From the NCBI GenBank assembly GCA_012522935.1, contig JAAYJN010000106.1:1-51100 (forward strand): a stretch of DNA of 51,100 nt, read 5' to 3'. This stretch comes from Candidatus Cloacimonadota bacterium (GTDB taxonomy: Bacteria > Cloacimonadota > Cloacimonadia > Cloacimonadales > Cloacimonadaceae). The notes below the pieces were generated by a model. That model was not told the origin of the DNA and did no database searches. It was given only the letters and a program-made list of their open reading frames with translations. This document shows, piece by piece, positions 9,775 through 47,513 of the stretch (positions are counted from its first letter, which is position 1; every line of letters starts with the position of its first letter). The translations under genes were made by a program, and so were the position numbers.

Positions 9775-9810
9775 TTTCCCGCCCCCTTTTCTCCCCTTTC
9801 TTCCTTATTA

Positions 9811-9880
9811 ACCACCCTTGTCTCTCCCTTGTCGAGACAAGGGAGAGACAAGGGTGGTACAAGGGAGGCTAATGGGCAAG
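9811..9880 (+). repeat. Phased palindromic repeat, copy 1
   Basis: The heptamer CCCTTGT occurs twice (from 9815, 9826), then its complement ACAAGGG three times (from 9837, 9848, 9859). All five starts are exactly 11 bp apart. The inner part is a perfect inverted repeat with 23-nt arms (9811-9833 and 9836-9858) and a 2-nt centre. The flank GGCTAATGGGCAA (9868-9880) is shared, in inverse orientation, with copy 2 at 20625. This copy lies between two convergent genes and points the opposite way to the other two. Confidence 0.9.
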
Positions 9881-9920
9881 GAGCACGCAGCTCGTGTTTA
9901 GGGGTCAGAGAACAGAGGGC

Positions 9921-20603: not shown

Positions 20604-20624
20604 AGCTGTCAATCTGACCGCTTT

Positions 20625-20697
20625 TTGCCCATTAGCCTCCCTTGTACCACCCTTGTCTCACCCTTGTCGAGACAAAGGAGAGACAAGGGTGGTTAAC
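20625..20697 (+). repeat. Phased palindromic repeat, copy 2
   Basis: CCCTTGT starts at 20639, 20650 and 20661, then ACAAAGG (one base off) at 20672 and ACAAGGG at 20683. All spacings are 11 bp. The flank TTGCCCATTAGCCT (20625-20638) is the same as in copy 1, inverted. It lies 22 bp after the barrel-protein stop. Confidence 0.9.
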
Positions 20698-20840
20698 AGA
20701 CGCGGTATCAGTTTGGGGGCATAAATACCAAAGATTCAGATATTCAGTTACAAAGGAAATTGCTTGACATTCTGCCTGTAGGCGCATCTTTTGATTTCAA
20801 TCCCAATTTATAATCAAAATACATATATAATGGAGGAACG

Positions 20841-30515: not shown

Positions 30516-30588
30516 CTTGCCTATAAGCCTCCCTTGTACCACCCTTGTCTCACCCTTGTCCAGACAAAGGAGAGACAAGGGTGGTTAA
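30516..30588 (+). repeat. Phased palindromic repeat, copy 3
   Basis: CCCTTGT starts at 30531, 30542 and 30553, then ACAAAGG at 30564 and ACAAGGG at 30575. All are exactly 11 bp apart, in the same orientation as copy 2 and with the same off-consensus fourth unit. The left flank shares only AGCCT with copy 2. It lies 15-90 bp after the exported protein's stop. Confidence 0.88.
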
Positions 30589-30719
30589 TGAGGAAGAACC
30601 AGCCAAAAGCAATGCCGGACATCCGGTTTTGATGCTTGCACACAAAACAATTGACAAAAGCGGGCAGATTAAAAATGTGCCTGTAATAGAATATAAATTA
30701 TTCCAAGGAGTAATAAACA

Positions 30720-47321: not shown

Positions 47322-47352
47322 TTAATTGATCCAGCAGGCACTTTGATCCTTG

Positions 47353-47435
47353 CCCATTAGATGCGGTTGTGATGCCGTTGTGATACCCAGCAAACTACTG
47401 GATATCACAACGGCATCACAACCGTATCTAATGGG
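47353..47435. repeat. Long near-perfect palindrome with 38-nt arms
   Basis: The left arm (47353-47390, starts CCCATTAGATGCGG, ends TGATACCCAG) and right arm (47398-47435, starts CTGGATATCACA, ends TCTAATGGG) pair at 36 of 38 positions. They are separated by CAAACTA. Each arm contains two GTTGTGAT units 12 bp apart. It lies beside the IS remnant and downstream of the nqr operon. Confidence 0.9.
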
Positions 47436-47449
47436 AAACCAAGCAGGAA

Positions 47450-47513
47450 GCCTTGACCGCAGTAAAGCGGGCAAGGCATTTGTGAGAGCCTGCCATATCA
47501 CGTTACGCAGGCT
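47450..47513 (-). terminator. Tandem hairpins at the end of the nqr operon (possible terminator)
   Basis: Two stem-loops, GCCTTGaCCGC/GCGGgCAAGGC (47450-47477) and AGCCTGC/GCAGGCT (47487-47513), follow the last nqr-operon gene on the minus strand. Neither has a good U-tract in that direction, so termination is only a suggestion. Confidence 0.35.

Follow-up and report, generated by a model that had tools for sequence, protein, structure and literature searches.

Intergenic repeats phased at exactly 11 bp look like an undescribed group of elements in the Cloacimonadaceae, with the spacing apparently being their conserved rule. We analysed them starting from a 51,100-nucleotide stretch of a Candidatus Cloacimonadota genome (hereafter the window, which is contig C76 of the 2.13 Mb, 170-contig genome G000), where three copies of a palindrome built from the heptamer CCCTTGT/ACAAGGG occur. 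We lean towards the view that these repeats are lineage-specific palindromic elements derived from mobile DNA, with the phased words retained as an array of protein-binding sites.

Copy 1 occupies positions 9800–9881 on the minus strand, with heptamers starting at 9815, 9826, 9837, 9848 and 9859 (two CCCTTGT and three ACAAGGG as read from the sequence, the three-unit arm being the right one). Copy 2 lies at 20624–20705 on the plus strand (heptamers at 20639, 20650, 20661, 20672 and 20683, three-unit arm on the left) and copy 3 at 30516–30597, also on the plus strand (heptamers at 30531, 30542, 30553, 30564 and 30575). The sequence-only reading had counted five heptamers per copy with starts 11 bp apart, and all steps are indeed 11 bp in the three copies, the centre of symmetry included. 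Its placement of the copies also stands, but the whole elements extend slightly beyond the intervals it gave because terminal inverted repeats, CTTGCCCATTAGCC and GGTTAACAGGGAAG, enclose the heptamers. The element is about 82 bp long and oriented, comprising CTTGCCCATTAGCC, three units, a loop, two units and GGTTAACAGGGAAG. The terminal repeats are about 14 bp long with CTTSCCYRTTARCC at both ends and some variable positions, while the outermost CACTC/GAGTG, present in about half of the copies and weaker, may also be part of the element. With arms of three and two units, the hairpin leaves one 11-nt unit unpaired. Folding of the heptamer elements gives z-scores from −5.5 to −8.5, and two stem mismatches are kept among the aligned copies (A.A in 52/57 and C.A in 51/57), which suggests that most copies descend from one master, itself an imperfect hairpin. 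Copies 2 and 3 had been considered closer to each other due to a shared off-consensus unit; however, most copies in the genome have this unit, ACAAAGG (51 of the 57 aligned), so it points to no special relation between them.

A search of the entire genome with the 11-bp-phased pattern, which had been proposed as a check, revealed a large family with rigid spacing. At least 84 heptamer elements were found in G000 among the matches listed (29-base core pattern, no more than one mismatch, strand pairs merged), and three-heptamer sites with up to two mismatches numbered 126 (60 + 66), compared with 0 for a reversed-pattern control. We estimate the copy number at about 120, and the elements are dispersed over both strands and many contigs. 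We located 73 copies in 877 kb of sequence and parsed 71 of them. Of the 276 steps between neighbouring heptamers, 271 measure 11 bp and 5 measure 22 bp, with none drifting, and the 22-bp steps represent one unit too diverged to be counted. The cores form length classes of 56, 67 and 78, i.e., in 11-bp steps (67 in 68/71 copies), and the arms are arranged as FFFRR in 52 and as FFRRR in 10 of the parsed copies. Restriction to three copies with no conserved phasing in relatives, or a freely drifting spacing, had been named as outcomes adverse to the idea; instead, there are far more than three copies, the phasing is conserved in related genomes and the spacing does not drift.

The CCCTTGT family is shared by G000 and G004, a relative with about 95% identity within the window and about 80 sites, and is absent from the congeners G001, G002, G003 and G005 (about 72% identity). 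Copy 3 is in place at the orthologous G004 site, the alignment to contig C406 passing through it. Wherever both flanks were found on one G004 contig the element is in place, further shared sites were also seen, and the flanks of 25 G000 copies, joined without the element, gave no junction-spanning match that would indicate an empty site in G004. The shared insertions suggest that the family spread before the split of these two genomes, and its absence from the other congeners that it did so after the split from those. We rejected recent transposition between G000 and G004 for the sites compared, where the elements are shared in place; with no empty site between the two, transposition itself was not observed. 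No target-site duplication was detected at any fixed offset for lengths 2–9 in 70 copies (best z 3.4, shuffled-flank maxima 2.4–4.9); it may have decayed or be hidden inside the terminal repeat.

Some ortholog comparisons deserve separate mention. The five-unit interior is inverted between the G000 and G004 orthologs L035:8736-8817 and L281, with the termini and flanks unchanged, and two paired flips of A-T to T-A separate the orthologs L189 and L015; both cases could stem from conversion by another copy. Compared with window position 20606, the G004 locus L083 diverges just past the gene preceding copy 2 and continues as L194-like sequence, representing either a rearrangement or an assembly join at the repeat.

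The heptamers evolve more slowly than their surroundings. Differences between G000 and G004 orthologs amount to 268/2847 (9.4%) in the flanks, 27/366 in the terminal repeats, 12/192 (6.3%) in the spacers and 9/420 (2.1%) in the heptamers, which are therefore 4.4-fold slower than the flanks (p = 1.7e-8) and also change less than spacers and terminal repeats taken together (7%, p = 4.7e-4). All nine heptamer changes are confined to positions 3 and 7, so that the kept word is CCYTTGY. Among the 57 aligned paralogs, non-consensus bases make up 1.5% in the heptamers versus 6.5% in the 4-bp spacers, and heptamer 2, which lies outside the core pattern used for parsing, has none in 399, with the caveat that the G000 copies were collected by pattern and that the independence of related copies is incomplete. 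Part of this constraint could come from ectopic gene conversion and from the pattern-based collection. Gene conversion may lower the rates across the whole element, but it should not split 7-bp words from 4-bp spacers, and the constraint on heptamers relative to their surroundings favours a recognised site.

The same figures bear on a neutral origin of the array, according to which a palindrome of tandem 11-bp repeats arose once and spread as a MITE, its step being inherited and its low divergence maintained by gene conversion among copies. The variation of unit number in steps of 11 agrees with such an origin, as does the inverted interior of L035/L281 with its same termini, an outcome to be expected from recombination of arms or of copies with each other. 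However, conversion would even out whole elements and would not spare heptamers above spacers, as both the paralog and the ortholog figures require, and between genera the words are wholly different while the pitch is not. A purely inherited spacing is conceivable, though it leaves the slower change of the words unexplained, and we consider this origin improbable.

The constancy of the pitch was first apparent in a tandem-period scan, where period 11 is far above the other periods in G000, G011 and G012, although the stretches scanned were chosen for holding such sites. A fairer analysis took in all hairpins of 44 bp or more across 2.09 Mb of Cloacimonadaceae sequence, clustered by likeness and scored for self-similarity at lags 5 to 20 with a cut-off of at least 0.50. 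It yielded 65 clusters, 10 of them strongly periodic, comprising 8 at lag 11, 1 at lag 12 and 1 at lag 20; under a looser grouping, 8/8 were at lag 11. Two of the eight lag-11 clusters (the CCCTTGT family and the G011/G012 family, with the words CCCTCGTGATT in G011 and CCCTAGTGATC in G012) were found via the heptamer pattern, and the other six were not. Other lag-11 clusters are the TCAATACGGAC family of G013, G014, G017 and G045, the TTAATCAAGC hairpin of G013, CATTCCCATAT in G014, ACCTTAGTATA in G006 and CCGAGTCTTCA in G023, while the TTACCCATTGC hairpin of G014 (about 43–48 copies) and the ACTATACTGCA hairpin of G008 fall just under the cut-off. In the G013 element, which folds with z −15.9, the five phased units are arranged 2 + 3, like the FFRRR form of the CCCTTGT family. 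No lag-11 cluster occurred among the 12 clusters of a small control set (0.38 Mb) drawn from other families and other phyla, and 11-bp hairpins were not seen in about 105 kb of G007 and about 115 kb of G009.

One more lag-11 cluster is represented in the window itself, at 47349–47450 (no strand assigned; palindrome 47350–47438), with a fold of −70.6 kcal/mol and z −13.1. This palindrome has a terminal inverted repeat as in the CCCTTGT element (CTTGCCCATTAG/CTAATGGGAAA) and a different 11-bp unit (GATGCGGTTGT, GATGCCGTTGT). Its family has three copies in the G000 sequence examined (the others at L171:7147 and L185:161) and resembles a family of the congeners G003/G005 (GTGATGCCGTGG). By eye, the outer ends CTTCC...GGGAAG are alike in several genera, and the families may have a common descent. 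Matches in other phyla were rejected as the same element: they were found by the phased pattern and are mostly single tandem 11-mers without a palindrome. A possible exception is L129:2885-2961 from Pedobacter sp. BAL39 (Bacteroidota), a hairpin with lag-11 AACCCCTTGTC units, which was found by pattern and does not represent independent evidence.

Each of the window copies lies after a gene end, about 25, 20 and 14 bp past the stop, as had been noticed; genome-wide, however, there is only a mild tendency of this kind. Practically all copies are intergenic: by crude ORF calls, 2–4 of the 71 are inside ORFs (non-coding fraction about 13%), and elements lie within 40 bp of a stop-facing neighbour in 19/73 cases versus 3/54 for start-facing neighbours (p = 0.004, random expectation about 16–17%). 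Tandem, convergent and divergent gaps hold 28, 16 and 13 copies, about as gap length predicts, and the copies in tandem gaps have no orientation bias (16 same, 12 opposite). A terminator or 3′-end role as the sole cause was rejected, the preference for stops being weak and divergent gaps not being avoided. The sequence-only reading had offered an architectural or chromosome-organising site as one example of what a cooperative DNA-binding protein might occupy; the analysis linked no binding protein to the element. Regular chromosomal spacing was rejected as well: in the one complete related genome, G014 (a single contig of 2,246,820 bp), the gaps between the 43 elements match random placement (gap CV 0.90, expected 0.97). 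Another dispersed hairpin, CTTGTACCCCCCGGCTAAAGCCAGGGGGTACAAG, often adjoins heptamer elements in many G000 intergenic regions (for example, L178:181-214), and 7-bp tandem runs of CACTGTCC/CCCCTGT-like units occur along with it.

The preference for stops, together with the strong folds of the heptamer elements, the second family and the G013 element, agrees with a functional hairpin of RNA (or extruded DNA), in which a transcribed stem is read on one face per turn by a dsRNA-binding protein or nuclease and ends or stabilises transcripts. A turn of the A-form RNA helix takes 11 bp and not 10.5, so the exact step of 11, in place of alternating 10 and 11, also suits an RNA stem, and for this reason we retain the idea; the paired flips in L189/L015 also agree with it. 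Against it are the use of divergent gaps (13/57, near their share of intergenic length), the indifferent orientation in tandem gaps, the conserved A.A and C.A mismatches, the frequent mispairing of the terminal arms and the lack of an Rfam match: with Rfam 15, no element scored above the gathering threshold, and the only hits in the window were two tRNAs. Taken together, we see an RNA role as unlikely, albeit the most serious competitor of the protein-binding array on DNA.

The idea of a REP-like mobile hairpin, raised by the sequence-only reading, is supported in form and abundance and fails in anatomy and in linkage to a transposase. REP, BIME and REPIN sequences are likewise short intergenic palindromes that form lineage-specific families, with about a hundred copies in a genome and both strands used (PMC3733652, PMC2817692, PMC3116915). 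The defining mark of REPs is a GTAG or CGTC tetranucleotide left unpaired beside the stem (PMC3733652); neither tag is found at the ends of the consensus CTTGCCCATTAGCC...GGTTAACAGGGAAG, and the heptamer element is 82 bp long in contrast to the 20–40 bp of REPs, with arms of 11-bp modules and terminal inverted repeats. Our search for a mobiliser covered the Y1 transposases. The single Y1 (IS200/RAYT-type) transposase of G000 is a 153-aa ORF on contig C77 (L029:8820-9281, minus strand). A heptamer element lies about 0.6 kb away; nevertheless, the gene is enclosed (L029:8418-9640) by another hairpin in inverted tandem copies of 76–78 nt (GAGTCTCGGAGAGAC-GATAGTTCAGGTCAAA, also GAGTCTCGGAGAGAC-GATAGTTCAGGTCAAATA), which is more probably the repeat it serves. 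The check for a nearby REP-type transposase, proposed with the sequence-only reading, thus linked none to the heptamer element. GTCCC...GGGAC hairpins similar to this flanking repeat adjoin Y1 genes in L289, L292 and L295.

We found Y1 genes in 30 of the 41 Cloacimonadaceae genomes, and 11-bp hairpins lie within 1.5 kb of about 8 of the 30 Y1 loci, near what density alone predicts; no Y1 transposase was found in G004 and G005, though both carry 11-bp-phased elements. We therefore rejected the Y1 transposase as the cognate mobiliser, its own flanking repeats being different and the 11-bp hairpins not being clearly enriched beside it. Although the palindromic form, the intergenic place and the roughly 120 copies make REPs the nearest known elements in abundance and position, mobilisation of the heptamer element as a REP by a RAYT/IS200-type Y1 enzyme is very improbable with both the tag and the flanking RAYT missing.

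Bacterial MITEs (ERIC/RU and similar, PMC2229807) are also small, non-coding, dispersed and potentially hairpin-forming, with terminal inverted repeats; unlike them, the heptamer element has no detected target-site duplication or linked transposase, and its interior consists of phased, constrained modules. Plasmid and phage collections gave no match, and in the openly accessible literature we came across no account of these repeats, though an earlier mention, for example in the first Cloacimonas genome paper, is possible.

Short words one turn apart, so that the bound proteins share a face of the helix, are characteristic of iterons and phased operator arrays. The heptamer element likewise repeats a conserved word at a fixed distance of one turn, and differs from such arrays in having two converging palindromic arms and about 120 dispersed intergenic copies not limited to a replication origin. 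Returning to the protein-binding array, we suppose that the Cloacimonadaceae carry a group of short palindromes, non-coding, derived from mobile DNA and MITE-like in form, to which the heptamer repeat belongs. Their plan would consist of short terminal inverted repeats (CTTGC/CTTCC...GGGAAG) around two arms of one-turn (11 bp) modules, each bearing a lineage-specific word of about 7 bp. A trans-acting activity presumably spread the element in the ancestor of the G000 species and its 95% relative, after which the elements would have stayed put. The words, either now or while the element was mobile, may be contact sites for a DNA-binding protein, with subunits side by side on one helix face; such an arrangement would keep both the word and the 11-bp step. 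A more speculative extension, which we doubt as it stands, is that arrays of one-turn modules are read throughout the Cloacimonadaceae by a modular, fast-evolving protein that binds nucleic acid (DNA, or dsRNA in view of a pitch that is exactly A-form). The genera would change the word but never the pitch, and each lineage would have its own set of about 50–120 chromosomal or transcript sites.

Sequence is the usual basis for classifying palindromic repeats of high copy number. Here the word varies between genera, and at least eight unlike hairpin clusters retain a spacing of exactly 11 bp. Such a constant step with changing words points to a structural rule set by the reader or the maker of the repeats, and it offers a handle for finding these elements, namely the search for hairpins with 11-bp self-similarity instead of shared sequence. 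If the reader is found, this little-studied phylum would yield either a repeat mobiliser of a new kind or a new system that binds chromosomes or RNA.
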